This document shows positions 2,508-38,262 of a stretch of 62,441 nucleotides of DNA, piece by piece. This stretch comes from a virus, in IMG/VR virus record IMGVR_UViG_3300036853_000205, positions 1-62,441 of that record, one strand, 5' to 3'. Numbering within the stretch: the first letter of the stretch is position 1; each line of letters begins with the position of its first letter. The notes below the pieces were generated by a model. It was not told the origin of the DNA and searched no databases. It was given only the letters and a program-made list of their open reading frames with translations. Made by a program: the position numbers and the translations under genes.

Positions 2508-2764
2508 TGGTCGGCGATCCCGATGTTGGCCGGGCGGTTGCCGCCCCATACGTGCGCCTGGCCGGTACCGCGTCGATGGTCGGAGGGGCACGGCAACTCT
2601 CCGTTTGCGGGAGGGTGACCGGTGAAGGCGACGCCCCAGAGCTTGCGCAGCAACTGCCAGCCGGGATTTTTGTCGCAGTACTCGCACTCGCCGGGGGCGT
2701 GCAGCACGTCCTGGTCACAGTGCGGGACCTTGCCCAGCTTTACGAAGTCCTCGAACGTCGTCAT
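2504..2764 (-). CDS. Small cysteine/histidine protein downstream of terL
   Basis: This 86-residue protein (MTTFEDFVKLGKVPHCDQD) starts with an ATGA overlap on the terL stop. It contains CDQDVLHAPGECEYC and a later CPSDHRRG, a possible single zinc site. No known catalytic motif is seen. The tight overlap on both sides places it in the packaging operon. Confidence 0.7.
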   Translation of the reverse strand: MTTFEDFVKLGKVPHCDQDVLHAPGECEYCDKNPGWQLLRKLWGVAFTGHPPANGELPCPSDHRRGTGQAHVWGGNRPANIGIADQ

Positions 2765-4485
2765 GACACGCCTTCGCCTTCGATCTCGTCGTTGGGGTCC
2801 TCGTACGCCGAGCGGCGCGGCTTGCCTGTGACCATTGCCCGCGAAAGGGCGGTGACGAGGGCGGCCACTCCGTCGATCTTGTCGACGGACCGTGCCCGGT
2901 CGGGTTTGACGTTGCCCGCCGGGTCCATCGCCACTGAGATGTTGTCGATCATCCAGCGCATGACCGGGTTGGCGCCGTGCCGTACCAACGGCTTGGCGGC
3001 GGTGCCTTGCAGCAACAGTCGGCTGAGTTGCTTCATGGGCGGGGACAGCGATGCGTATCCCTGCCGCACGGTGACCATCGGGGCGCCGTCGCTCTGCAAA
3101 TCGGTGACGAGTTGGGTGGCGTTCCACGGGTCGTAGGCCAGCTCGACCACTTTGAACGTGGTCAGGTCCTTGTTGATCTGTGCGCGCACATGGGCGTAGT
3201 CGGTGACCTCACCCGGGGTGAGCCGCAGGTAGCCGCGTTTCACCCAGCTCGTGGCGGCCCCGGCGGTGCGGTCGTCCAGCTTGCGCAGGTTCATCTCCGG
3301 CGTCCAGAAGCGCCACAGTGCGTCGTATCCGGCTGCGTCGTCGGGGAACAGCCAACACAGGGCGGTCAGGTCTGATGTAGACGCGAGGTCGAGCCCGCCG
3401 AACGCGTGCCGCCGCTTCAGCCGCGACTCGTCCACGAGACTCGCGTTGCGGTCCCAGACGGGCAGCTCGAAGTACTTGGTTTCCTGGCGGGTGCGCACGC
3501 CCAGGTGCAGGCGAAGGAACCGAGCCAGGTTCACCGGATTCTGTTGCGCCTTGGAGGCTTCGACCTTCAGGAAGGCCCGGGTGGGGCTGATGCCGTAACC
3601 GGGGTTGGCTTTCTTCCACGTCGACTCCAGGAACGGGTCATCGAGCGGGTCGGCTGCGAACACCACCCCGTACACACTGGGCTGCTTGATGCCGCCACGC
3701 GCCAGCCGCTCGATGTAGTCCCGTTTGTGGGCGTAGACGCTCTCCGGGCGACCATCGTCGGCGGTGGTGATGGTGATGATCAGTGGCTGAGACCTGGCTC
3801 CGGTGCCGGATTCAACCGCATCTACAACGGCGGATGTCTTATGGATGTGTAGCTCGTCAATGCCCGCGGCGTGAATGTTCGCGCCGTGCAACAGGTCGCC
3901 GAGGCTGGCAGCGACAGCGAAGTAGCTGCCGCTGGACTCCTGCACAATGCGCGACTGCAAGGGGCGGATGCCCGCCTGCTTCAGTTGCGGCGAGGACTGC
4001 GCGAGCTGCTTGGCGGGGTCGAAGCAGTGCCGGGCCTGGTCTTTGCTTCCCGCGACGGCCAGCACTTGCGCGCCGGCCTCGTCGTCTGCGAACGCCAGCA
4101 CGAGCAGCAATCCACTGATCAGAGTGGTCTTGCCCGCCTTGCGGGGCACGTCGATGTACACGGAGCGCACGATCCGCACGTAGACGCCGTCATCGTCGGG
4201 CGCCACCCACCCGAAAACCGGTGCGAGGATGTAGGCGACCTGCCAGGCGTCGGGCTTGAGGGGCCTGCCTGCCCACTTGCCCTGCGTGTGGCGCAGGCAC
4301 TCCAAACCAGCGATGACCTTGTCGACCCGGGATGCGTCAAAAACGGCACGGGGGTACCGGTTCGGCTCGGGCGTGCGTACGGCGGGCACGCACCAGTCGG
4401 GCACGACGTAGCCGCGCGACTCCAGATACCAATTGACCTCGGGAGACAGATCAGCCCGTGTGCGAGAACGGGTTCGTGTTGGCAT
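2761..4485 (-). CDS. terL: Terminase large subunit (TerL)
   Basis: This 574-residue protein is the ATP-driven DNA packaging motor and headful/cos nuclease, of the Terminase_1 family. The Walker A motif is VPRKAGKT at residues 113-120 and a Walker B-like segment is AAGIDELHIHK at about 205-215. A C-terminal RNase H-fold nuclease is indicated by FGGLDLASTSDLTAL, VELAYDPWNATQL and the final DKIDGVAALVTAL acidic motif. Length is normal for the family. The start lies 35 bases inside terS, so the two are translationally coupled. Confidence 0.95.
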   Translation of the reverse strand: MPTRTRSRTRADLSPEVNWYLESRGYVVPDWCVPAVRTPEPNRYPRAVFDASRVDKVIAGLECLRHTQGKWAGRPLKPDAWQVAYILAPVFGWVAPDDDGVYVRIVRSVYIDVPRKAGKTTLISGLLLVLAFADDEAGAQVLAVAGSKDQARHCFDPAKQLAQSSPQLKQAGIRPLQSRIVQESSGSYFAVAASLGDLLHGANIHAAGIDELHIHKTSAVVDAVESGTGARSQPLIITITTADDGRPESVYAHKRDYIERLARGGIKQPSVYGVVFAADPLDDPFLESTWKKANPGYGISPTRAFLKVEASKAQQNPVNLARFLRLHLGVRTRQETKYFELPVWDRNASLVDESRLKRRHAFGGLDLASTSDLTALCWLFPDDAAGYDALWRFWTPEMNLRKLDDRTAGAATSWVKRGYLRLTPGEVTDYAHVRAQINKDLTTFKVVELAYDPWNATQLVTDLQSDGAPMVTVRQGYASLSPPMKQLSRLLLQGTAAKPLVRHGANPVMRWMIDNISVAMDPAGNVKPDRARSVDKIDGVAALVTALSRAMVTGKPRRSAYEDPNDEIEGEGVS

Positions 4486-4906
4486 CGGAACGGCCCTCCG
4501 CCACGATTCGGGTCCGCCCTGACGGCGTCAACCCGAACTCCTGCGCGAAGCCGCGCACCGTGTGGGCGGCGTCGCGCTGGATTTGGAGTGCGGGATTGCG
4601 AACCATGTTGCCGTGCATTCCCCGCACCAACACCGAGGTCTTGGCGAGGATTGCGCTTGCCTTCCGGTGCGCCACCACGGCTTCGCAGTAGCAGCGAAGG
4701 GTGTCACGGTCGGCGGACGTGGCGATCTTCATCACGAGCAGTTCGTTGAGTGTGTAGTCCCAGATTTCGCGGACGTCGTCGGCCATGTCGGGCGGCGGCT
4801 CGGGAGGAAAGTCGCGGGTGATCGGCTCACGCAGATTGACGTGGCTCGGTCGGCTCTCACCCCGCAGCAGCCGCAGTTTCAGGGGCACTGGCGGTGGTCC
4901 GGACAT
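4451..4906 (-). CDS. terS: Terminase small subunit, P27-like
   Basis: This 151-residue protein should bind the packaging start site and recruit TerL. It has a Pro-rich N-terminus (FPPEPPPDMADDVREIWDYTLNELL), then a helical block (DRDTLRCYCEAVVAHRKASAIL and RDAAHTVRGFAQEFGLTPSGRTRI), as in P27-like small terminases. The start is well supported by an AAGGAGG eight bases before ATG 4906. The upstream TET gene runs 50 bases past this start, so terS begins inside the modification cassette. Confidence 0.88.
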   Translation of the reverse strand: MSGPPPVPLKLRLLRGESRPSHVNLREPITRDFPPEPPPDMADDVREIWDYTLNELLVMKIATSADRDTLRCYCEAVVAHRKASAILAKTSVLVRGMHGNMVRNPALQIQRDAAHTVRGFAQEFGLTPSGRTRIVAEGRSDANTNPFSHTG

Positions 4907-5810
4907 CGGTCAAACCTCCTTGCCCCTCGCGGAGCCTCACAGCCCGTTCGTATTCCTCGTCGGGCGACCCGCACTGGGCGATTTTCGTTCGGAAGTAGCT
5001 GACGACGCTGATGCGTTCCGCGCCGCAGCTCTCACAGGGGGCGCGCACCCGCTCTCCGCAACCGCAGACGATGGTGGTGTTTCCGTGCCAGTCGTGGGCA
5101 TCCATCAGCAACAGGTCACCGTCGTGCATGTCCACGGCCACCCGATAGGCGGGAAACACCAGTTGTCCGCCGGTGTAGGGGCCGCGCCGCAGGCAGGCAA
5201 TGGTGGAGAACCCGGCGTCGAGATCGCCCCTGTCGGTGTGGACCCCCGTCGGGTAGGTGTTGTTGACGGTGACCGTGGAAAACGGGGTACCCGGCACGAT
5301 CCACGCCGCATCACTCACGGCGGCCTGCGCGGCCTGGTTGGCGTAGCGGTCGGGGACGTGCTCGGCCAGGTGCCCGGCCACAGCCCGCAGCAACGGGTGG
5401 AGCTGCTGCCAGTAAGGCAGATTGCGCGCGGTCCACGACGTCTGGCGACAGTAGCGCTGCTGTCCTAACGCATCCACCGCACCGACCACCATCGACGGGG
5501 TTTCGGCCGCATAGGAGCGGCCACGCCCCGTCGGGTCGAGACGCGGCGTTCCGCTGGCGGCGCCACGATTTTTGGTGACCATGCCGCGCAACGAGTGCAG
5601 CACGTCATAGGTGACAGGGTCGGCGACCTGCGCGGCGAGCGCACCCGGCAAGTACACGCACAGGGGGCGCCCGTCGGGTTTGATGAGGCGCGCCGGGCCG
5701 GTCAGCAACACGTCGAAGTCCGCCGCGCCGAGCACCTTACCGGCGAGGCTTTCGCGGATGGCGGAGTCAGCGACCCGGCTGCGTAGCCGAAGTTCGGTGT
5801 GAACCGTCAT
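4857..5810 (-). CDS. TET/JBP-family 2-oxoglutarate Fe(II) dioxygenase
   Basis: This 317-residue protein is predicted to oxidise the 5-methyl group of a pyrimidine in DNA. The double-stranded beta-helix core shows the iron triad H191-x-D193 (YPTGVHTDRGD) and H242 (HDWHGNT). A 2-oxoglutarate-binding arginine lies in RISVVSYFR (R274), and GPYTGGQLVFP and MHDGDLLLMDAHD are typical TET/JBP elements. An insert at 249-262 carries CGCGERVRAPCESC (CxC and CxxC), a likely extra zinc site. Characterised phage TETs act on 5mC made by a co-encoded C5-methyltransferase; one is present here at 22513-23205. The start at ATG 5810 overlaps the kinase stop by four bases; longer forms add only Arg/Pro shadow sequence. 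The C-terminus overlaps terS. Confidence 0.88.
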   Translation of the reverse strand: MTVHTELRLRSRVADSAIRESLAGKVLGAADFDVLLTGPARLIKPDGRPLCVYLPGALAAQVADPVTYDVLHSLRGMVTKNRGAASGTPRLDPTGRGRSYAAETPSMVVGAVDALGQQRYCRQTSWTARNLPYWQQLHPLLRAVAGHLAEHVPDRYANQAAQAAVSDAAWIVPGTPFSTVTVNNTYPTGVHTDRGDLDAGFSTIACLRRGPYTGGQLVFPAYRVAVDMHDGDLLLMDAHDWHGNTTIVCGCGERVRAPCESCGAERISVVSYFRTKIAQCGSPDEEYERAVRLREGQGGLTDVRTTASAPETAAAAG

Positions 5811-6367
5811 TGCAGTACCCGCAGCGGAAGCCGTGCCAGCGCCGGAAGCAGCTCCGTCAACCGCGCGACGTTGGCGGCGGGGTGGGCGGTGCCGTCGAGC
5901 TGGACCAGGCGGTGGCGGCCTACGGCGTGCTCGGCGAGCCTGGCCGCCTTGGTGGCGCGGCCCGTCCGCCACGACACCGACTGGGCGGAACCCCGGGAGG
6001 CGGCACGCCGGTCCAACTCATCGTCAGGCACGGTCAGATAGACCGCAGTGACTGTGTAGCCCGCGTTGACGCCCGCGTCGAGAAAGCCACTGTGGGCCAA
6101 CCGGTCACCTTCACCGAGCACCAACGCGGACGGCTGACCGGCAAGAAACGACTTGGCCAGGGGGGAGACGTTGAGGCCGAGGGCATCAGTGCCGGAGAAC
6201 GCGGCCCGGCGCTTGCCCAGTTCGATCCCGACGACATCGGCGCTGCGCGTGAGGAGGTCGTGGGCGAACGGCTTGGCCATCGGGTGGCGCCCACAGCCAC
6301 CGGTCAGTTCAGCCATGAGCGTCGACTTTCCGGCGGCGGGCGGCCCGAAGACGTAGACCAGGTTCAC
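5807..6367 (-). CDS. P-loop kinase of the DNA-modification cassette
   Basis: This 186-residue P-loop NTPase starts with MNLVYVFGPPAAGKST (Walker A, residues 8-16). It has hydrophobic core strands SALVLGEGDRL and TVTAVYLTVPDDELDRR, and an arginine-rich lid RRAASRGSAQSVSWRTGR. This small-kinase architecture matches the kinases that phosphorylate 5-hydroxymethyl bases in hypermodified phage DNA. Between a TET enzyme and a transferase-like protein, the expected substrate is 5-hydroxymethylcytosine in DNA. A nucleotide-level kinase cannot be excluded. Both ends overlap neighbours by four bases. Confidence 0.75.
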   Translation of the reverse strand: MNLVYVFGPPAAGKSTLMAELTGGCGRHPMAKPFAHDLLTRSADVVGIELGKRRAAFSGTDALGLNVSPLAKSFLAGQPSALVLGEGDRLAHSGFLDAGVNAGYTVTAVYLTVPDDELDRRAASRGSAQSVSWRTGRATKAARLAEHAVGRHRLVQLDGTAHPAANVARLTELLPALARLPLRVLQ

Positions 6368-7482
6368 GCCGCGACGTCTCTGCCGTCGATGATCGCCTGG
6401 CGGACGTGGGCGTCGGCCAGCACGTCAACGACCAGATGCACCCGATCCACGCCGGAACGGTTATCCACGGCGTGCGGCTTGCGGGCGTCGAGATACCACA
6501 TCGACCAGGCGGGCAGGTGCGCGTTGTACCGCTCACCCCGCAGATTCCACGCGGACATGGTGATGTCGGGATGGGTGACCAACGGGATGTGGAACCGCAC
6601 AATTTGCCGGTCACGGGTGCCTGCGGCGCGATCGGTGATGTCGGTGTGGCGCGAGAGGCTGCCACCCTTGCCGCCGCGACCCGCCATGCGTAGCAGGCGC
6701 ACCCGCTCCAGTTGCCCCCACCACTCCACACCGCGCACCAGCTCCACCGTCGCCGGGCACTTCGCGGCGAGCACGGTCCAGGCGCATCGGGTGTACTGCA
6801 CGGCCTCAGGGTGCGCCGTCCACCACGCCTTCGACATCTCGGCGGGTTTGATGCCCCAGGCGGGGTCGGCGGGGTTGAAGCCCCGCAGGCTTACCGCACC
6901 CCAGGAGCCGTCGGAATAGTACGGGTAGTCGTCGGTCCAACCACGGATATTCGTGGCCTCGGCAACGATCGCGGCGCGCTGCGTCGCGGTGACCGCCAGG
7001 GGCACGCGGACAAGGGTGGCGGAGTCAGCGGCGGGGTAACTGTGCCCGGAGCCAGCCCGACCCCAGCAGTTGACGATCTCTGATGCCGCCGACACGCGCA
7101 CTGCCGCGATCTCGCGGTTTTGCAGCCGCAACTGCCGGGTGATGTGGGTGTCTTCGGCATAGGCGAAAACGTAGTCGAAGGCCGCCAACGAGGGCAGCGT
7201 CACGCTCGGCAGGCACGCCAGGTGGGTGATGACGCGGGCACCGTCGCCGAGAACGTAGGCGCGGCCGGAGAAGTCCAGCCGAGTCGAGCTGCGGGTCAGC
7301 CGCCGCGACACCGCTGCCGCCCCTTGGCCCCACCAGTGCCACGTCCCGTGGGCCATGTGGTTGTCGATCTCGGCGGCAGTCGGTACGGCGAAGGCGCCGG
7401 CGGCGAAGTTCTTCGCGTAGGCCCCCAGGAACCGTGCGGCTTCGCGGCCGGTCGTCGGGGTCCTCAGGTCGACGGCGGTCAT
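6364..7482 (-). CDS. Two-domain protein with C-terminal Asp/Asn-hydroxylase-like dioxygenase
   Basis: This 372-residue protein has a C-terminal cupin-like oxygenase domain (about 255-360). It includes LSRHTDITD (H279-x-D281), VRFHIPLVTHPD, SMWYLDARKPHAVDN (H337) and DRVHLVVD (R347). This is the pattern of aspartyl/asparaginyl beta-hydroxylase-like 2-oxoglutarate enzymes, different from the TET gene nearby. The N-terminal 230 residues (FDYVFAYAED, QLRLQNREIAAVRV, SEIVNCWGR) are not assigned; a GNAT-like fold is a weak guess. Within this cassette a plausible role is tailoring an aminoacyl or alkyl group on the modified base. It is joined to both neighbours by four-base overlaps. Confidence 0.7.
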   Translation of the reverse strand: MTAVDLRTPTTGREAARFLGAYAKNFAAGAFAVPTAAEIDNHMAHGTWHWWGQGAAAVSRRLTRSSTRLDFSGRAYVLGDGARVITHLACLPSVTLPSLAAFDYVFAYAEDTHITRQLRLQNREIAAVRVSAASEIVNCWGRAGSGHSYPAADSATLVRVPLAVTATQRAAIVAEATNIRGWTDDYPYYSDGSWGAVSLRGFNPADPAWGIKPAEMSKAWWTAHPEAVQYTRCAWTVLAAKCPATVELVRGVEWWGQLERVRLLRMAGRGGKGGSLSRHTDITDRAAGTRDRQIVRFHIPLVTHPDITMSAWNLRGERYNAHLPAWSMWYLDARKPHAVDNRSGVDRVHLVVDVLADAHVRQAIIDGRDVAA

Positions 7483-8387
7483 GCGGCCCCCTCCATCACG
7501 GCGAGCTGTGGCGTCCGCACGATCCCGGTCTCGCGGTAGCAGCGCCCGAGTTTTTTGTCCGCGCCCGGAGGTACGTCACGCCACGGCGCGGGGACCGCCG
7601 AGCGGAACGCCTCGCGCAGCACAAGCTTGTCCATGAGTAGGGCCAGGCCCTCGATCTCTTCACGGATCATCGCCAGGTGCTTGCCGGGGTAGTACCGGCC
7701 CTTGCGCATGACGTTGAAATCGCAGATGACCGTCTCGAAGTCCCACCAGGACAGGGCCACCCCGTTGTCAGCGAGCATCGCTCGGCACTCGACGGCAGTG
7801 GCGTTGAGCCAATCCACGCTGGGCTGATCGTTGCCGTACAGACGTTCCAGCGACTCGCGGGGCCCGCTGGACTCCCACAGGAACGCGTGCGGAGTCTCCA
7901 CCGGCAGGCCGATGACCTTGGCCGTGAACTCAGCCCATTCGAACGCGGTCAGCCGCCCGACGCCCCAGACACGACGCAGGTAGGGCATCAGCGTCAGAAA
8001 AGCGTCAGCGGGGTCGGCGTCGGCGGGCACCGCTTCCCGCAGCCACAGCAACTGCCGCTGCCCGCCGAGCAGGCTCACGTACGAGTCGAGGTGCTGAAGA
8101 ACTTTGCCGCCGCGCAGGTTGCGGCGTTCACCCGAGCAGGGCAGCCGAGCCACGGCGGCACGGTCGACGTGTGGCCAGGCCACAGGTTCTGGGCAGCCGG
8201 CCAGCACGGTCATCGCGGAGCCGAGGTCGTCGAAGGCGTTGTAGAGCTTGACCGCCCAGAGCAGCCGTTCGGTGTCCCACCCGGCGACGGTGCGCAGCTC
8301 GGCGAGCACGGCCGCCCACGGTTCGATGTCGGCGGCGGCGACTTCGTAGCGGGCGAACGTCACCAGGTCGGCCAGCACAACATCCAT
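7479..8387 (-). CDS. Helical DNA-modification protein, amino-acid:DNA-transferase-like
   Basis: This 302-residue, mostly helical protein begins MDVVLADLVTFARYEV at ATG 8387, coupled to the ParB-like stop as TGATG. Notable segments are LLWAVKLYNAFDDLGSA, NLRGGKVLQHLDSY, YLRRVWGVGRLTAFEWAEFTAKV, and ETVICDFNVMRKGRYYPGKH near the end. These resemble the helical (HhH/glycosylase-like) alpha-glutamyl/putrescinyl-thymine pyrophosphorylase and hydroxymethyl-base kinase-associated families found with TET/JBP genes in phages. I infer a transferase that replaces an activated hydroxymethyl group with an amino acid or amine. Assignment is by pattern and context only. Confidence 0.5.
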   Translation of the reverse strand: MDVVLADLVTFARYEVAAADIEPWAAVLAELRTVAGWDTERLLWAVKLYNAFDDLGSAMTVLAGCPEPVAWPHVDRAAVARLPCSGERRNLRGGKVLQHLDSYVSLLGGQRQLLWLREAVPADADPADAFLTLMPYLRRVWGVGRLTAFEWAEFTAKVIGLPVETPHAFLWESSGPRESLERLYGNDQPSVDWLNATAVECRAMLADNGVALSWWDFETVICDFNVMRKGRYYPGKHLAMIREEIEGLALLMDKLVLREAFRSAVPAPWRDVPPGADKKLGRCYRETGIVRTPQLAVMEGAA

Positions 8388-9235
8388 CAGGCGGCCACGT
8401 CCGCCGTCCATCCGGCGTACTTGGCCAGGTCGGCGGCGGCCGGGTCGTGTGGTGCGGCGTGCAGCACCGCACCCATCGTGCGCAGCCCGCGCAGCATTAC
8501 GTCGGATGCGCGCAGGTCGCCGTCACCCAGGGCGGTGCGGGCGGCGGCCACCAGGGCCACGGCTTCAGCGCGGTCGTCCTCGGAGTACACGAGGATCATT
8601 TCGGTGAAGCCGCCGCTTGCCGGGCCGATGCGCGGCTCGTAGGCGGCGATGCGGTCGGTACGCGCGGCGAGCTGTTCGGGGGTTTCGGCGTAGGCGGCGT
8701 CCGTCGCGGGCACGGCCACGGCCTGCTCCGGCTCGGGTAGCTCGGCGGCGGCCAGCAGGTCTTCCAGCTCTGACGGGGTCCACCCGGCCAGCTCCGCCAG
8801 GTCGAAGTCTTCGCCAGCGAGTGAGGTCAGCACGTCGGCCAGACCAGCGTCATCCCAGCCGCCCAGTTCGGAGTGCTTGTTGTCGGCGAGTAGGTACGCA
8901 TCGGCCTCAGCGTCGGATCGGCTGGCCCAGCCACGAACTACCGGCACCAGCCACCGTCCGGTCGCGTCGAGCTGCACACCGTCGGGTGGGGTCTGGCCCG
9001 CGTCGCGCATCAGCGCCAGCGTTTCGGCCCGGCCGTGACCCACGACCAGGCGGCCGGTGCGCTCGTCTCGCAGTACGGGGGCGGCGAAACCGAAGCGGTC
9101 CATGGAGGAGCGCAGCAGATCGAGCCGGTGTTTCTTCGGGTTGCGGGTGGCCGGGACGATCTCATCCAGCGGCATATAGATGATGTTGCGCGCGGGTGCC
9201 TGCTTCATATTGATGCCTATCGCTGATGGCTTCAT
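8387..9235 (-). CDS. ParB-like nuclease-domain protein of the modification cassette
   Basis: This 282-residue protein starts with a ParB/Srx-fold domain (IIYMPLDEIVPATRNPKKH, LLRSSMDRFGFAAPVLRDERTGRLVVGHGRAETLALM, DAYLLADNKHSELGGWDDAGLADVL). An acidic linker and a C-terminal domain follow, with MILVYSEDDRAEAVALVAAART. Such proteins commonly accompany phage DNA methylases and base-modification genes, where they may recognise or handle DNA. A start at the internal ATG 9208 is also possible; neither start has a strong ribosome site. It is the first gene of the cassette after a non-coding hairpin region. Confidence 0.78.
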   Translation of the reverse strand: MKPSAIGINMKQAPARNIIYMPLDEIVPATRNPKKHRLDLLRSSMDRFGFAAPVLRDERTGRLVVGHGRAETLALMRDAGQTPPDGVQLDATGRWLVPVVRGWASRSDAEADAYLLADNKHSELGGWDDAGLADVLTSLAGEDFDLAELAGWTPSELEDLLAAAELPEPEQAVAVPATDAAYAETPEQLAARTDRIAAYEPRIGPASGGFTEMILVYSEDDRAEAVALVAAARTALGDGDLRASDVMLRGLRTMGAVLHAAPHDPAAADLAKYAGWTADVAA

Positions 9236-11918: not shown

Positions 11919-12211
11919 CGTAGAGCCTCGTTGAGCCCAACCAGCCGCACCAGCCGGAGCATGTCTTCGCCGCTGGGCCGCTCCAGGCTGCGCAGGGTGG
12001 CTGAGCGGGACGGCGACCACGCAACCGCCTGCCAGGCGTGGGTGAGTTTGTCAACGAACACCCCAAGTTCGTCGTCTTGCCAGGTCCACCGAGCGAGGTC
12101 GGGGTCTTTCTCGGGCGGACCCAGACGCTCGACCAGGACCGGCAGCCATTGGTCGGTCTGAGCGGGTGCGAAAGTCGAGGACATCGTGGCTCCTTCGGGG
12201 TTGTCGGTCAT
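11915..12211 (-). CDS. Small protein downstream of the replication fusion
   Basis: This 98-residue protein (MTDNPEGATMSSTFAPAQTDQWLPVLVERLG) starts in an ATGA overlap with the polymerase stop. WTWQDDELGVFVDKLTHAWQAVAWSPSRSATLRSLE is well-formed but unassigned. A four-base overlap also joins it to the following Zn-finger gene, so the three form a translational unit. Confidence 0.7.
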   Translation of the reverse strand: MTDNPEGATMSSTFAPAQTDQWLPVLVERLGPPEKDPDLARWTWQDDELGVFVDKLTHAWQAVAWSPSRSATLRSLERPSGEDMLRLVRLVGLNEALR

Positions 12212-15200
12212 GCCGAGTCGGCCCAGGCGAACGCGGGCGCGCTGGGTTCGGCTTCGATGCTCACGCCGAACAGTTCGGTCTTCATGCATCGCACCAGTTC
12301 GGCGGTCGCCACCTCGGCGTCGGCCGCAGGCACGAACACGTCCAGTTCGTCATGCACGGGCAGTAGCACGCAGGCACCCCAACGGGTCTCGCGCCACCGA
12401 ACCAGGGCATCGACTAGCAGCTCCCTTGCGGTCCCCTGGATGCAGAAGTTCGGGCCCTTGTGGGGGAACTCGCGGGGTAGGTGGATGACGCGTCCGGCGT
12501 AGGTGGCGAACTGGGTCTGGCCGCGCTGAACCGCTTCCCGGATCGACTGGGACCAGGCCGTCAGTTGCGGCGCAAGCGCGTCCAGCGCATCCACCACCCG
12601 CTGCATCTCAGCGTGCGACACGCCCAACTGCGCGGCCAGGGCGGGCACCCCACCGCCGTAGATCCGCCCGAACACACCGCGCTTGACCCGGTAGCGCTGG
12701 GCCTTGTTGGCGTCCGGCCCGTACACCATGCGGGCGATCTCCCAGTGCAGGTCGCGTCCGTCGAGCAGGAATTGCAGCAGGTTGCGGTCCTGGGACAGGG
12801 CGGCGGCCACCCGGATTTCTACGCTGGAGAAGTCCGCCCCGATCATGAGCATTTCCGGGTCCGCGGTCAGGCACGCCCGCATTCCGCCTTCGCGGGGCAG
12901 TTGCTGGAGGTTGGGCCGGACGCAGGACATGCGGCCGGTGTCAGTGCCGAGCGTGTAGACCGTGGGTCGGGCACGCCCGTCGCCGCGTTCGCACAGTTGC
13001 CGGTACGGGTCCAGGAACAGCCCAAGAGCGGTGTCGGCGTGCCGGTAGTCGAGCACCGCCCCCACGAGGACGCCGAGCGGCCCTTCAGCGGCCCGTAGCG
13101 GCTCCAGAACGCCCGCAGCCACTGAGGGGCGCCCCGTCTTCGTTGTCGGCAACGTCGCGCCGAGCTGGGTGGCTGCCTGGCCCACCTGCTGGTCGGAACC
13201 GGGGTTGTCGATCCCGAACGTGCGCACCCGGACGGCGGCGTCGGCCCGGCCCGCGATGTGCAGCTCGCTCAGCCGGGCGATGTGCTCGGCGTCGAGCCGA
13301 ACGCCTTCATGCGCTACTCGGGCAGTCATGCGCTGCGCCAGCCGCTCCCGCCAGTACACCTTGGGGGCTGGCTGGGGCAGGACTTCGGCGAGGGCAGCGG
13401 TGTCGAGCACGTCCGACGCCGCGTAGCGCAGCATCGTCGCCGAGTGGGTGTCGACCTGTGCCCAGCCGGACCGCTCAACCGGGGTGTCGGCCTTGGTCTT
13501 TTCGAGCCAACGGCCCGCCTTGAACAGCGCTGCCCGACTGGCGTCGGCAGCCGGAGCGACCGCGCGCACGCCGAGCACGGCCGCCGCCAACTTCTTCAGA
13601 CCGGGATCGGAGCCGGTGCTGGCGGGGTCGGCGAGCTTGGCGGGGATGACGGTGTCGCGCATCCGCAGCCATGCCGCGTCGGCGTCGATCAGTCCCGCGT
13701 GGGCCAGCGGCACCAGGTCGGCGGTGGCCGAGTGCGCGTGCAACGTCGGCGCCTCGTCCAGCAGGGAGCTGATCAGCGCGGCCTGCTCGATGGGGTCGAA
13801 CACCACGGCGGCTGTGGCGTCGCCGAGCTGCACTGACCGCAGAGCGTAATCACCGTGGCCCACCGGGTAGCCCGTGGTCTCCACGTCCACGGTCAGCGCA
13901 CCCGAGCGCTCCACGGCACCCCGGACCACGGCTGCGGCCTGCTCCAGACTCAGCGCCATGATCGTGCCGTCGCGGTCGACCACGGCGGGCAGCGCCACCG
14001 TCGCGCCAGCCGCCGCAAGGATCGACGCCGAGCGTGCCTCAGCCTTGAGCTGCGCGCGGGCCTCGGTTTTGGTGATCTTCGATGTGCTGGCACGTAGCGC
14101 CACGTCGGCGAGGGTGGTCTGTGACGGGGTGACCCGTGACGGGACCTGTTCCCCTTTATCTGTATTTATATAGTGTGTGTTATTTGTATGTTGTTGATGA
14201 TTGTTGTCTAAACTATTCAAACTAGTCACTGAACAAGAAGAAACAGGGTCTGACCTGGTGTTATCGTCCGTGACGGGCGTGGTCGAAACCAGTCGCTCAA
14301 CGCGTCCCACTCCAGTCACCGATGCGTCAGACGTTTCGACCTCCGGACTCGTTCGTCCTAGGAAGGCGGCCGGGGTGGGTGTCGTCGGCATGGACCCTTC
14401 GGTCCAACCCAGGATCGAGAGCGGTCTGACCTTTCCGTTTCGCGTGTGCTGCGCCGGAAAACCCATCTCCGTCAGGGTCCGACCGAAGGAAGTCACTGAT
14501 GGTATGACCGTTTTCCGGTAGATGGGATTGTCCTGATGCCACTGCGCGAACGCGTTGTAAAGGGTGCGGGCGGCGGTGCCCGGCTCGGTCGGGATGGTGC
14601 GGTTTTCGACCCACTCTCGGACCGGGTTCTGGTCCTCCGCGAGCGTCTGCGCCAGGCCGCGCACAGCCGCCGGGGCCACTGCGTTCGACGCTGAGTCCCG
14701 GTCGGCCAGATAGCCCGCCGTCTCCCGCATCAGGGCGGCCAGGATGCCTGGTGCCTCCTCGGCCAACGCAACGCCGAGCAGCGCGAGCCGGGCTGGTCGA
14801 ACGTCACTCTCCGTAGCGTTGCAGGGGATCAGGCGCATCCGGGCGCGTAGGGCGGGGTCGGTCAGGTGGGGCTCGTCGTTCGTCGTCATGACCAGGGTGT
14901 GACTCGGCGGGAACGTCACCGAGTTGGCGCGCATCGGGCGCCCGGTCAGCGACCCTCCGCCGGTGAGCTGCTTCAGGCGTTCGGTGGCGTCGTGGCCGCG
15001 CCGGGGCCCCTCGTCGATGAACGAGAACCGGCGCCCTTTCAGGTCCCAGATAATCTCCGGGTGGCTGGTGTCCTGCGCGCTGAGCAGTCTCGGGCTGGCG
15101 GCGTGCGCATAGGAGCCCAGCACCTCAACCAGCATCTCGATCAGCGAGGTCTTGCCCGAGCGCTCCGTGCCGTAGAGCACCGGCAGGGCTGCGTCCGCGT

Positions 15201-16842
15201 GGCCTGTGAGGCCGATGGCCAGCACCCGCAGCGCCCACGCGCGCACCTCGGGGTCGGGAAGCACCGCGGCCACGAACGCATCCCATCGTGGCGTCGCGCA
15301 GTTCGGGTCCGGGGCGCACAGGGCAGTACGGAGGTGCGGGGTGCCCGGGTCGACCCACCGTGCCAGGGTCGGCACGTCGCCACTCGCCCGCAGATCCCAT
15401 GGAGCTCCCCCGGCCCAAAGAATCTCCGGGTTGGCGTCGAGTGTTGCGCTGCGCAGGGCGGCCGGATGGTCAGAGCTGACGATGGCGCGCAGCTTGCGGG
15501 CGACCTTGCTCGCGCCCGCCGACGACATGAACTGTGCCCGCCGCACGGCCCGCCAGTGCGCTTCTGTCCGGTCGCCCAGCTCCTTCGGTACCGGTGTCTC
15601 CCCGATCGGCATCAACTCCGCCAGCACCGCGATTGCCCACTCGGACAGGTCGTCGGCGTGCTCCCGCCACACGTCCCGGCCGCGCACGATCCACAGCTTG
15701 GCGTCGCTGGCGAACCGCAGCGCCGGATACATCCGGTAGGCGACAGCCTTGGCCAGGCCCTGATCGCTGGAGTCCAGCGCCGGATCGAACGGCTCCCCGC
15801 CCAGCACCGCATACACTGACCACGGAGGCTCTGCCGGAGGTGCTTCGTCACCCGGCGGAGCCTCCCCCTGCCCGGCGATGGCCTCGTGCTCGTGCTGGTG
15901 AGCCTGCTCCGCCGTGAACACGTGGAACGGCTGGACCGCCCCGTCGTCCAGACCCTGTTGCACCCAGAGCTGGTCATCGGCATCGGGGCAGCCCCACACC
16001 TCACCGATGGCCTCTTCCAGCCGCTTGCGGGCCACCCCTTCATCGAGGTATCCGCCGCCGACATACCCGCCCAGGGTCAGCGCCGCGCGCAGCAGCACCG
16101 TTCGGAAGCCGATCCCGCCGTCGCTGGTCCACGTCGACACCTCGGCGAGCTTGGCGGAGATGGCCTTCTCGGCAGCCGGCGCGGACTGCGGCTCGCGGCA
16201 GGCGACGAACGACTGCCACCAGTCAGGCCCGCCGGCCGAGCGCATACCCGTCCCCGCCGCACGGACCTCCCCGATGCGCGCCGCGAGCGCTGACCCGCTG
16301 GCGTCTTGCCCTGTGCGCCAGGCGTAGTCGCCGAATCCGCCGGGGTCGGGTACCCGCTGCCACTGGTAGGCGACCGGTGCCCGCGTCACAGCCGACGCCC
16401 GCACGGTCGGCGCGATGAAGGCGAACCCACGGCCGCTGCCGTCCGGCAGGCCGCCCTTGACGTCGATGCCGGGCCAGAGGTTGTCGCGGCTGCCCACGCC
16501 GAGCGACGCGATGAACAGGTGCCAGCCGCCGGACGGCGTGGCCGCACAGGCGTACACCGTGGGCATCAGCCCTTCCAGCGCACCGAGGTCAGCGCCGTTG
16601 CGCGGGTCGATGTCGATCAGATCCAGACCGCAGCCCATCACCGCGCACAGCGCGAGTCCCGGCACCCACAGGTCGACGACGCCCGGGTCAGGCTCGGTGC
16701 GTTCCCAGTGCTTCGGCGGCCGGAATCCGGTCTTCGCGTCCGGGTCGGGGTGCGCCAGGAACAGCGGAACGCCCGCAGCGACCAGGGTCCGGGCCACGTC
16801 CAGGTCGGCGCGCTGCTGTTCTGTCAGGTCAGGATTAGTCAT
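12208..16842 (-). CDS. Primase-polymerase / helicase / DNA polymerase I fusion
   Basis: This single 1,544-residue protein joins three replication activities. Residues 1 to about 230 are a Prim-Pol domain (GLDLIDIDPRNG acidic motif, ATPSGGWHLF, DVKGGLPDGSG). About 500-760 is a D5/SF3-type helicase with Walker A YGTERSGKTS (about 555), RRFSFIDEGP and HTLVMTTNDEPHL. About 830-960 is a low-complexity linker rich in Asn, Thr and Gln. From about 975 there is a DEDD 3'-5' exonuclease domain (LTVDVETTGYP) and then a family A polymerase (IGADFSSVEIR near 1335, a KRGVFGRIYGGG O-helix, HDELDVF near 1495). No stop interrupts the joints. ATG 16842 overlaps the upstream gene by eight bases; longer starts add shadow sequence. 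Normally primase-helicase and Pol A are separate genes. Confidence 0.93.
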   Translation of the reverse strand: MTNPDLTEQQRADLDVARTLVAAGVPLFLAHPDPDAKTGFRPPKHWERTEPDPGVVDLWVPGLALCAVMGCGLDLIDIDPRNGADLGALEGLMPTVYACAATPSGGWHLFIASLGVGSRDNLWPGIDVKGGLPDGSGRGFAFIAPTVRASAVTRAPVAYQWQRVPDPGGFGDYAWRTGQDASGSALAARIGEVRAAGTGMRSAGGPDWWQSFVACREPQSAPAAEKAISAKLAEVSTWTSDGGIGFRTVLLRAALTLGGYVGGGYLDEGVARKRLEEAIGEVWGCPDADDQLWVQQGLDDGAVQPFHVFTAEQAHQHEHEAIAGQGEAPPGDEAPPAEPPWSVYAVLGGEPFDPALDSSDQGLAKAVAYRMYPALRFASDAKLWIVRGRDVWREHADDLSEWAIAVLAELMPIGETPVPKELGDRTEAHWRAVRRAQFMSSAGASKVARKLRAIVSSDHPAALRSATLDANPEILWAGGAPWDLRASGDVPTLARWVDPGTPHLRTALCAPDPNCATPRWDAFVAAVLPDPEVRAWALRVLAIGLTGHADAALPVLYGTERSGKTSLIEMLVEVLGSYAHAASPRLLSAQDTSHPEIIWDLKGRRFSFIDEGPRRGHDATERLKQLTGGGSLTGRPMRANSVTFPPSHTLVMTTNDEPHLTDPALRARMRLIPCNATESDVRPARLALLGVALAEEAPGILAALMRETAGYLADRDSASNAVAPAAVRGLAQTLAEDQNPVREWVENRTIPTEPGTAARTLYNAFAQWHQDNPIYRKTVIPSVTSFGRTLTEMGFPAQHTRNGKVRPLSILGWTEGSMPTTPTPAAFLGRTSPEVETSDASVTGVGRVERLVSTTPVTDDNTRSDPVSSCSVTSLNSLDNNHQQHTNNTHYINTDKGEQVPSRVTPSQTTLADVALRASTSKITKTEARAQLKAEARSASILAAAGATVALPAVVDRDGTIMALSLEQAAAVVRGAVERSGALTVDVETTGYPVGHGDYALRSVQLGDATAAVVFDPIEQAALISSLLDEAPTLHAHSATADLVPLAHAGLIDADAAWLRMRDTVIPAKLADPASTGSDPGLKKLAAAVLGVRAVAPAADASRAALFKAGRWLEKTKADTPVERSGWAQVDTHSATMLRYAASDVLDTAALAEVLPQPAPKVYWRERLAQRMTARVAHEGVRLDAEHIARLSELHIAGRADAAVRVRTFGIDNPGSDQQVGQAATQLGATLPTTKTGRPSVAAGVLEPLRAAEGPLGVLVGAVLDYRHADTALGLFLDPYRQLCERGDGRARPTVYTLGTDTGRMSCVRPNLQQLPREGGMRACLTADPEMLMIGADFSSVEIRVAAALSQDRNLLQFLLDGRDLHWEIARMVYGPDANKAQRYRVKRGVFGRIYGGGVPALAAQLGVSHAEMQRVVDALDALAPQLTAWSQSIREAVQRGQTQFATYAGRVIHLPREFPHKGPNFCIQGTARELLVDALVRWRETRWGACVLLPVHDELDVFVPAADAEVATAELVRCMKTELFGVSIEAEPSAPAFAWADSA
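14157..14250. other. AT-rich island inside the replication fusion gene
   Basis: This stretch is strongly AT-rich (tatttatata, ttatttgtat, several att/aat runs) inside otherwise GC-rich coding sequence. In the gene frame it encodes the Asn/Gln/Thr linker between helicase and polymerase domains and includes a TTA leucine codon at 14209-14211. It could be a fusion scar, a DNA-unwinding element or an internal control point. Confidence 0.7.
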
Positions 16843-17047
16843 GCTGCACGCACCGTTCGCCATTTCCGCCAAGGTGCTCGATCTGAAACGACCGGACCTG
16901 ATCAAGCGGTATCCAGGTGCGCGGCACCCCTCGGCCGATCACCAGGCAGCGACTCGGTGCGTCAATCTTCCAGCCGCCGCCCTCGGCACTAACGGGGTAG
17001 TACATGTGCGTGTGGTCGTGATAGAGGATTACCAGTTGCAGCCTCAT
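16835..17047 (-). CDS. Small protein upstream of the replication fusion
   Basis: This 70-residue protein (MRLQLVILYHDHTHMYYPVSAEGG) has strands separated by turns and ends GERCVQHD. It starts in an ATGA overlap with the resolvase stop and overlaps the replication fusion by eight bases. VRSFQIEHLG near the end suggests a small beta fold. Function unknown. Confidence 0.7.
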   Translation of the reverse strand: MRLQLVILYHDHTHMYYPVSAEGGGWKIDAPSRCLVIGRGVPRTWIPLDQVRSFQIEHLGGNGERCVQHD

Positions 17048-22166: not shown

Positions 22167-22516
22167 GACTGCCCCCGCCCGGCGACGGCGCGAAGCTCCC
22201 AGTACGTGGCCTGCTTCGCGTACTGCACATAGATGTGAGGTACCTCGGCCTTGAGCCGGGTGGTGTCGAGTCGCCACGACGTCTTCGCGGCCAGCCGCAG
22301 CGGCGCATCGAGGGCCGTTGCGGTGAAGTCGACCTTGTGTGCGCCGGGGGCGGCTTCGCTCAGCGCGAGCTTGAGGGCGGCGGTGATCTCCTCCAGGCGG
22401 CCCTTCGCCGCGTCGGCAGCGGGCTTGGCGATTGCGTACGCTTCCGCGAGCTGTTCCAGCCGGCTGCCTGGCTCTGCCACGACGGCGGCGTGCTCGGGGG
22501 TCAACGGGTCGGTCAT
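22163..22516 (-). CDS. Small helical protein of the recombination operon
   Basis: This 117-residue protein has a long helix (EQLAEAYAIAKPAADAAKGRLEEITAALKLAL). A beta segment KVDFTATALDAPLRLAAKTSWRLDTTRLK and YVQYAKQATYWELRAV follow. Similar short proteins sit with nuclease genes in other actinophages. It overlaps the methyltransferase stop by four bases. Function unknown. Confidence 0.68.
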   Translation of the reverse strand: MTDPLTPEHAAVVAEPGSRLEQLAEAYAIAKPAADAAKGRLEEITAALKLALSEAAPGAHKVDFTATALDAPLRLAAKTSWRLDTTRLKAEVPHIYVQYAKQATYWELRAVAGRGQS

Positions 22517-23205
22517 AGTGTGACTCCGGTGGAAAGGTGCGCGGTGCCGAGCCAATGTGTGTAGGCGGGCGGAATGGCTTCAGTCAGTTCTGGTCGGGCG
22601 TCAGTCCAGTCGATGCCCATTGCCTGCTGCATCTCCGTCACGGAAGCCTTACCGCCGCCGTCCCCGTAGGCGGCGACGTACGGGCCCTCGCGCCAGACGC
22701 CGTGGCGCATTCCACGAACGAATCCCCGATGGGCGATGTGGTCGGGTTGTTGCACGGCCCACCCACCCAGCTCGAAGTTGCGGTGCCGCAGAACGCCGAG
22801 GCCGAACATTTCGCCGCACAGCCGCACGTCCTTACGGATCGGGGCCCCGCCGTTCGGCTGCTCGATCACGTAGGGCACGCCCGCCCGCACCAGCAGCCTG
22901 CGCAGCGGGGGCAGTAGTCGGGGGTGGAGCTGGCCGCGCGTCGCGCGGTTGGTGCCCTGGGTGAGCGCGCAGTCGGCCTGGCACGGCGGCGAGGCGTGAA
23001 CCAGCGCGTACCGCTTGACACCTCCCGACTTAATCAGGAGCGACAGCGCTGCCAACGCGTCGACTTGCAGCAGTGGGTACGGGTAGCGCGGCCGGTCGGC
23101 GATGTCGATGCCGGTCACGTCGAAGCCAGCGCGGGCGTACCCGACCGAGGCGCCCCCGGCGCAGCAGAACAAATCGAGCAGGCGCGGCCGGGTGGGTGGG
23201 GTCAC
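22513..23205 (-). CDS. DNA cytosine-C5 methyltransferase
   Basis: This 230-residue enzyme has motif I (LLDLFCCAGGASVGYARAGF), motif IV (HASPPCQAD, catalytic C75), motif VI as VIEQPNG, motif VIII as RHRNFEL, and a final EAIPPAYTHWLG (motif X-like). It is a compact form with a short target-recognition region (about 145-205), so it probably recognises a short site. It would supply 5mC to the TET enzyme at 4857-5810, although it lies 13 kb away in the early operon. Confidence 0.9.
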   Translation of the reverse strand: MTPPTRPRLLDLFCCAGGASVGYARAGFDVTGIDIADRPRYPYPLLQVDALAALSLLIKSGGVKRYALVHASPPCQADCALTQGTNRATRGQLHPRLLPPLRRLLVRAGVPYVIEQPNGGAPIRKDVRLCGEMFGLGVLRHRNFELGGWAVQQPDHIAHRGFVRGMRHGVWREGPYVAAYGDGGGKASVTEMQQAMGIDWTDARPELTEAIPPAYTHWLGTAHLSTGVTL

Positions 23206-36777: not shown

Positions 36778-38262
36778 GTGACTGCCACCGACCTATACGT
36801 CAGGTACTCCGACCTAAAGGCCGAGAATCTAACGCCTGACGGTGAGGCGAAGAACATCGAGAACGCAGTTCAGTTGCTACGCGGGCGGGCCACACTGTAC
36901 GGCTGGCAGGTCGCTGAGGTGATCGTTGAAAACGACGTGTTGGGCGACGGGCGACTCAAGCCCGCGTCGGCGTACAAGCGGCGGGCCGTCATTTTGCCGA
37001 ACGGCGACGTGATTCAGCGTGTGATCCGGCCAGGTTTCACGCGGCTGGTGGACCGACTCAAGGCGGGCGTATCGCAGGCCGTGGTGGCGCTGGACCTTGA
37101 CCGGCTGGTGCGCGATCCGCGCGACCTGGAGGACTTCATTGACGTGTGCCGGGCGACCAACGCTAACGCCCGGTCGCTATCAGGCTCGTTGACCTTCACC
37201 GACGGCGGCACCGACGGGGAGATCACCATGGCGCGGATCATGGTGGCGGTAGCGAGCAAAGAGTCGGCGGACAAGGTGCGGCGACAGAAGGTGGCCCGCA
37301 AGCGCAAGGCGGAGGCGGGCGAATTCGGCGGCGGCCCGCGACCTTACGGGCGAGAGGCAGACGGCAGAACTCTGCGCGAACCCGAGGCCGAGGTGATCCG
37401 TGTGGGGTGCCGCCGGGTGCTTGCGGAGCCGCCCGTCAGCCTGCGCTCACAGGTCCGCTCCCTGAACGAGCAAGGCTTCCGCACCGTGGCTGGTCACCTG
37501 TTCAAGGCCCCGGACTTTCGGGAGATGCTGCTTCGGCCGTGGAACGCCGGTCTGCGCGTTCACGACAAGCAGATCATCGGGGAGGACCCAGCAGCAGCCA
37601 TCGTCAAGCGTGAGGTGTGGGAGGCGGTGGTGGACAAGCTGACTGCCCCCGGCCGCCGCAAGTGCCCCCCGGGTCCGGCACACAAGTACCTGGGCACCGG
37701 GTTGTTTCTGTGCTGGTGCGGCAGCACGGTCACGCCCCGGATCTCCAGCCGGAGGTCAAACCGGTACGGGTGCAAGCTGGGGGCGAACGGGGGCGCCGGG
37801 GGCGGGCACGCGGTGCGGGTCATGGCGGACGTAGACGCCTGGGTGGTCGACAACGTGCTTGCCCGCCTGGCCGAGCCGGACGCCGCCGAGCTGGTCGCGC
37901 CGCGCGCCGGTGCCACGATCGACGTAGCCGCGCTGCGCGCCGAGGTCAGGCAACTACGCGACCGCAAGGTTCGGCTGGTTCGGATGTTCGTCGAGGACGG
38001 GGACGAGGAAGCCCTGATGAAGGGCAAGCGGGATATCGACGCGAAGTTGAACACGAAAACGGAGCTGCTGCACGCGGCCACCGAGGTCTCACCACTGCGT
38101 GACCTAGTCGGCGCCGACGACGTGCGGGCCGTCTGGGAAACGATGACTCTCGGCGAGCGGCGAGCCGTGATCGCGCTCGTTTGCCGGGTCGAAATCTGGC
38201 CGCTGAACCACGGGGAGCGCCGGTTTGACCCGAGCGCGGTTCGGGTTCTCTGGAACGCCTGA
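36778..38262 (+). CDS. Large serine integrase
   Basis: This 494-residue site-specific recombinase would integrate the phage into the host chromosome. The N-terminal resolvase domain has the catalytic serine in LYVRYSD (S11), VVALDLDRLVRDPRDLEDFID and ITMARIMVAVASKESADKVRRQ. The recombinase domain has GGGPRPYGREADG and VRSLNEQGFRTVAG. A zinc ribbon lies around CWCGSTVTPR...YGCK, then a coiled coil (AALRAEVRQLRDRKVRLVRMF). The N-terminus has an insertion around VILPNGDVIQRV. GTG 36778 follows GGAGGGAACCCC. Confidence 0.95.
   Translation: MTATDLYVRYSDLKAENLTPDGEAKNIENAVQLLRGRATLYGWQVAEVIVENDVLGDGRLKPASAYKRRAVILPNGDVIQRVIRPGFTRLVDRLKAGVSQAVVALDLDRLVRDPRDLEDFIDVCRATNANARSLSGSLTFTDGGTDGEITMARIMVAVASKESADKVRRQKVARKRKAEAGEFGGGPRPYGREADGRTLREPEAEVIRVGCRRVLAEPPVSLRSQVRSLNEQGFRTVAGHLFKAPDFREMLLRPWNAGLRVHDKQIIGEDPAAAIVKREVWEAVVDKLTAPGRRKCPPGPAHKYLGTGLFLCWCGSTVTPRISSRRSNRYGCKLGANGGAGGGHAVRVMADVDAWVVDNVLARLAEPDAAELVAPRAGATIDVAALRAEVRQLRDRKVRLVRMFVEDGDEEALMKGKRDIDAKLNTKTELLHAATEVSPLRDLVGADDVRAVWETMTLGERRAVIALVCRVEIWPLNHGERRFDPSAVRVLWNA

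Follow-up and report, generated by a model that had tools for sequence, protein, structure and literature searches.

A phage gene cassette for probable DNA base hypermodification, pairing a TET/JBP dioxygenase with a second, AspH-like dioxygenase

The IMG/VR virus record IMGVR_UViG_3300036853_000205, a 62.4-kb virus sequence with 67% GC, was analysed over its full 62,441 nucleotides (hereafter the window). It carries five genes at 9235-4857, all on the minus strand, which encode in order a ParB-like protein, an amino acid:DNA transferase (ADDT), an AspH-like dioxygenase, a kinase of the Ploopntkinase3 family and a TET/JBP dioxygenase; the terminase small and large subunits and a portal protein follow. 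We read this gene set as a cassette for post-replicative hypermodification of DNA bases, with thymine as the probable starting base, and we assign this reading as a whole a probability of about 0.6. The cassette genes and the other features on which the argument draws are:

8387..9235, minus strand: ParB-like protein of 282 amino acids (aa), first cassette gene (phrog_620 1.5e-30; phrog_498 4.8e-28)
7479..8411, minus strand: ADDT of up to 310 aa (PF18724 5e-11, gathering score passed)
6364..7482, minus strand: AspH/proline-hydroxylase-like Fe(II)/2-oxoglutarate (2OG) dioxygenase of 372 aa, with an extra N-terminal region (PF05118 3e-6)
5807..6367, minus strand: P-loop hydroxymethylpyrimidine DNA kinase of 186 aa (PF18751 Ploopntkinase3 4.6e-34; Walker A GPPAAGKS)
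4857..5810, minus strand: TET/JBP dioxygenase of 317 aa, TET1 clade (PF12851 6.7e-21)
4451..4906, minus strand: terminase small subunit, directly after the cassette (PF05119 8.9e-21)
2761..4485, minus strand: terminase large subunit (PF20441 2.7e-39)
22513..23205, minus strand: compact C5-cytosine methyltransferase (C5-MTase) of 230 aa (phrog_363 5.1e-31; motifs I, IV and VIII)

An earlier note, made from the sequence alone, had described five overlapping genes at 4857-9235, and all five are present. Adjacent genes overlap by 4-5 bp (junctions TGATG, ATGA, GTGA and ATGA in order) and, because of these overlaps, look translationally coupled. A 371-aa open reading frame for the TET protein (5972-4857) was rejected as too long; its start was moved to 5810 because homology begins there and the ATG overlaps the stop codon of the kinase gene (ATGA). 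For ADDT, an alternative start is possible near 8387.

Enzyme families, folds and catalytic residues all support the proposal of that note that the locus is a DNA hypermodification cassette. The protein it had called helical and transferase-like is an amino acid:DNA transferase: its PF18724 match lies above the gathering score, and a profile of ten relatives matches the solved structures 'Amino acid:DNA transferase' (25qc, 2e-13) and 'Glycinyltransferase' (8z2m, 9e-8). ADDT is 45-64% identical to its closest homologues and about 30% identical to outgroups. The P-loop kinase belongs, as suggested, to a hypermodification kinase family by its PF18751 match and by an intact Walker A motif that is conserved across relatives; homologues occur in 401 phage records, mostly mycobacteriophages. 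With the kinase and ADDT, two hallmarks of the pathway of phages M6 and ViI are present in the window. The TET/JBP assignment holds both by its PF12851 match and by fold. Its AlphaFold model (predicted local distance difference test, pLDDT, 91.7) matches CcTet, TET2 (TMq 0.66), NgTet1 and CMD1 in Foldseek, and the metal and cofactor residues are kept (H191xD193, H242 and R266), giving the HxD...H...R set in a double-stranded beta-helix fold. The ParB-like identification stands as well by its phrog_620 match, and a ParB-like gene heads nearly all related cassettes.

In the pathway that these families suggest, TET/JBP would act on a pyrimidine in DNA, thymine being the most likely one, and hydroxylate its 5-methyl group to give 5-hydroxymethyluracil, as trypanosome JBP does. 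The P-loop kinase would then phosphorylate the hydroxymethyl group, ADDT would swap the phosphate for a free amino acid, and the AspH/proline-hydroxylase-like enzyme would oxidise the attached amino acid, either by hydroxylation or by an oxidation beside the nitrogen that splits part of it off. The ParB-like protein, in a presumed DNA-binding or targeting role, probably helps to direct the enzymes to DNA. The purpose may be protection from host nucleases and perhaps also packaging, since the operon adjoins the terminase.

The cassette is conserved as a whole. From IMG/VR, scans returned 36 loci with AspH, 29 with ADDT and 53 with a TET of the TET1 clade, in sets that partly overlap. The kinase is present in all 29 distinct AspH loci and ADDT in 28 of them, the exception being a truncated contig. 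TET (of either clade) and ParB accompany AspH on every contig long enough to show them; L051, in which no TET was recognised, is the one possible exception. Gene order varies, TET being either last, as in the window, or second. This recurrence is far beyond chance, and the gene set is kept together in dozens of uncultivated phages as well as in Mycobacterium phage LilMcDreamy.

What sets the cassette apart is its second dioxygenase. As had been predicted, it is Asp/Asn-hydroxylase-like: it scores 27.6 bits against PF05118 (cut-off 22.6), and its metal and cofactor residues, H279xD281...H337...R347, are invariant in 25 sequences. Its AlphaFold model (pLDDT 92.9) has L-proline cis-4-hydroxylase (3e-10) and proline 3-hydroxylase as the best PDB matches by Foldseek, and also matches a nucleoside-antibiotic hydroxylase and AspH; these matches cover part of the length, and the N-terminal part has no match of its own among the best matches listed. 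Among viral models, the full-length architecture was found only in LilMcDreamy gp4 (TM 0.88), the next match being partial. No relative of the protein turned up when 84,980 prokaryote species genomes were scanned, so the family looks phage-specific.

In related loci, the slot between ADDT and the kinase is filled by other enzymes: a flavin adenine dinucleotide (FAD)-dependent oxidoreductase (FAD/DAO) in L077, L078, L082, L115 and the cultured phages Phelemich and Kozie, and a pyridoxal phosphate (PLP) enzyme in L086 and L087. AspH co-occurs with an FAD or PLP slot enzyme in 0/29 distinct AspH loci. In M6/PaMx11-type chemistry, the transferase is followed by an enzyme that remodels the attached amino acid. 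Because the AspH-like enzyme takes the FAD/PLP slot and never occurs together with these enzymes, its probable role is that of an oxygenase that tailors the attached amino acid. We put the chances at about even that it represents a new DNA-tailoring class, an amino-acid hydroxylase acting on a base-attached amino acid. Such a pathway would use two distinct Fe/2OG dioxygenases, one for the base methyl and one for the side chain, and its product would be a hydroxyamino-acid or aminomethyl base not seen before.

As a possible but clearly less probable alternative, the AspH-like enzyme would stand in for the FAD enzyme of M6/PaMx11-type pathways. It would then hydroxylate the carbon beside the nitrogen of a glycyl adduct, releasing a 5-aminomethyl base and glyoxylate (oxidative N-dealkylation) and leaving no stable hydroxy-amino acid. 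The slot that AspH shares with the FAD/DAO enzymes, never co-occurring with them, fits this chemistry, as does the match of the ADDT profile to the glycinyltransferase 8z2m, and AlkB/JmjC-type Fe/2OG enzymes are generally known to carry it out. However, the closest folds (proline hydroxylases, AspH and the nucleoside-antibiotic hydroxylase) leave stable hydroxylation products.

For the starting base, we favour thymine, which we consider likelier than cytosine by about 2:1 or better. A thymidylate-synthase homologue (PF00303) that could serve as a deoxyuridine monophosphate (dUMP) hydroxymethylase is absent from the window, where TET/JBP stands in its place. No nucleotide-stage hydroxymethylase was found alongside TET in 34 TET1 contigs, and the one PF00303 match among 29 cassette records lies in a record from which TET is absent. 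A TET that has neither a methyltransferase nor a hydroxymethylase as partner depends on a methylated pyrimidine of constant occurrence in DNA, and thymine fits this as the more economical substrate. At L007:9063-12290, the neighbours of an ADDT 50% identical to that of the window are not TET but a thymidylate-synthase homologue, an MTase-like protein and another P-loop kinase. This homologue aligns an Asn with the Asn of thymidylate synthase (dUMP-type), a position at which the cytidine monophosphate (CMP) hydroxymethylase differs. For M6/ViI-type phages, the published scheme is kinase and then transferase on 5-hydroxymethyldeoxyuridine (5hmdU) (PMC6449724), and a related gene set in Rhodococcus phage Tonitrus has been described as thymidine hypermodification (PMC11955845).

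The earlier note had built the pathway on cytosine: the C5-MTase at 22513-23205 would make 5-methylcytosine (5mC) and TET 5-hydroxymethylcytosine, and kinase, amino-acid transfer and dioxygenase tailoring would lead to a hypermodified cytosine. The methyltransferase itself is real, by its phrog_363 match and its C5-MTase-like motifs (DLFCCAGG, SPPCQ and LRHRNFE), and Pfam PF00145 does not report it. It lies 13 kb away from the cassette, to which its link is putative. Homologues occur in 306 phage records, and the family is a common stand-alone actinophage gene.

To count C5-MTases in related contigs we used phrog_363; a PF00145 version of this census missed the window-type enzyme, and a regular-expression motif scan was too strict, missing two MTases found by hidden Markov model. 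Among contigs of at least 40 kb, the census detected a C5-MTase in 3/17 of the TET1 clade and 3/12 of the TET2 clade, against a background rate known only indirectly, via the 306 phage records; two of the three positive TET2-clade contigs (G020 and G024) look near-identical. No C5-MTase was detected in the closest relative, G001 (TET 72% identical, 103-kb contig), or in the six genomes of cultured phages that encode TET, ADDT and the kinase (those of LilMcDreamy, Wooper, Phelemich, LittleMunchkin, Tonitrus and Kozie). After this census, we rejected cytosine as the leading interpretation on the strength of the MTase.

Several observations nevertheless weigh against thymine and for cytosine. The window itself encodes a C5-MTase with intact motifs, and in L010/G006 a C5-MTase (L010:13695-14306) that is 46% identical to it lies between the kinase and the terminase, the only case in this analysis of an MTase physically within the cassette. 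Contigs may be incomplete, so a missing MTase is not proof. Biochemically tested phage TETs, in 2021 work by Burke and colleagues, reportedly act on 5mC. Asp196 of the window TET is invariant in 40 TET1-clade sequences, the phage TET2 clade having Asn there, and aligns with Asn1387 of human TET2. This position lies near the base in solved TET structures, and the equivalent Asp of NgTet1 contacts the cytosine amino group; Asp196 would thus favour cytosine. We rejected this Asp/Asn difference as proof of base choice, since human TET2 has Asn at the aligned position and still uses 5mC. A joint alignment of the TET1 and TET2 clades was too divergent for scanning.

Taken together, a pathway that starts from 5mC made by the window MTase seems possible but less likely than one from thymine, because 14/17 and 9/12 of the related contigs of at least 40 kb have no detectable C5-MTase, nor do the closest relative and 6/6 of the cultured genomes, because the MTase family is widespread in phages, and because ADDT stands beside a homologue with the dUMP-type Asn in L007.

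It is very improbable that the AspH-like dioxygenase lies outside the base pathway as a co-transferred protein hydroxylase or regulator: PF05118 enzymes commonly act on proteins or free amino acids, but across 29 loci the gene is always within the operon between ADDT and the kinase, in exclusive exchange with FAD/PLP enzymes, and the scan of the 84,980 prokaryote genomes found no relative.

Related TET loci show further arrangements. Three TET1 loci (L085, L089 and L092) have the order ParB-PALP-PALP-kinase-TET with no ADDT recognised; here two PLP-dependent (PF00291-type) enzymes seem to stand in for ADDT, perhaps as another route of amino-acid attachment. In L110, L112, L121 and Nonlabens phage P12024L (L151), TET occurs with a TET-associated glycosyltransferase (PF20691, the match being weak in L112 and L121) and without a phrog_363 C5-MTase, P12024L having an N6/N4-type MTase instead; these phages may contain glucosylated hydroxymethyluracil, akin to base J. 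Within the window TET itself, a Cys cluster (CGC...CESC; 5025-5066, residues 249-262) between the distal His and the Arg is a possible zinc site. Several of these Cys are kept in close TET1 relatives and are missing from the TET2 clade.

Elsewhere in the window, a serine recombinase with resolvase and recombinase domains (36778-38262, plus strand) suggests a temperate phage, and a single 1565-aa open reading frame (12208-16905, minus strand) fuses a DUF5906/primase-helicase-like region, a 3'-5' exonuclease and a family A DNA polymerase. The closest relatives of the terminase large subunit are from actinophages, at identities of at most 56%, and an actinophage-like phage as the source forms part of our best explanation.

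Hypermodified bases make phage DNA resistant to many restriction enzymes and provide new kinds of DNA chemistry. With this cassette, the known tailoring enzymes would gain a class of oxygenase. The core of TET, kinase and transferase is fixed, and the slot behind it is swappable, holding an AspH, FAD or PLP enzyme.

Among known systems, Pseudomonas phage M6 and Salmonella phage ViI share with the window a route from a 5-hydroxymethylpyrimidine through a P-loop kinase and an amino-acid transferase to a tailoring enzyme (PMC6449724). In these phages, however, 5hmdU is made at the nucleotide stage by a thymidylate-synthase homologue, whereas the window TET would act on DNA. Tailoring in M6 and ViI is said, from the work of Lee and colleagues in 2018 and 2021, to rely on flavin, PLP, radical-SAM or acetyltransferase enzymes, as against the AspH dioxygenase of the window. 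The window cassette works like the M6/ViI pathway yet differs from the M6 subtype. Phage cytosine systems likewise combine a TET dioxygenase and a C5-MTase in one genome, reportedly with glycosyl- or carbamoyl-type transferases (Burke and colleagues, again 2021); in contrast, the window has a kinase and ADDT, and its MTase lies far from them and is not conserved.

Tonitrus and Gordonia phage Wooper carry a 'five-gene thymidine hypermodification' set at the genome end, with ParB, a TET-like protein, an aGPT-Pplase/ADDT-type transferase and a kinase as in the window, but their fifth gene encodes a Rossmann-like protein downstream of the kinase and there is no AspH dioxygenase. LilMcDreamy (NC_051582) is the closer parallel in gene content: its genes 1-5 represent the same five families just upstream of the terminase, with identities to the window of 45% for ADDT, 46% for the AspH-type dioxygenase and 44% for the kinase. 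It differs in its TET, a member of the divergent TET2 clade that occupies the second position, and in that no C5-MTase was detected. The earlier note's view that the combination with a second dioxygenase had not been described stands only in part: LilMcDreamy already carries the five families, but its annotation (ParB-like, queuine tRNA-ribosyltransferase, hypothetical, hypothetical and terminase small subunit) leaves them unexplained. As LilMcDreamy is a cultured Mycobacterium smegmatis phage, base and product are directly testable there. The pathway logic is already known (PMC6449724; Tonitrus, PMC11955845); new are the AspH-type dioxygenase as a probable tailoring enzyme, its fixed linkage, across many phages, to a core of TET, kinase and ADDT, and the swappable slot that it occupies.

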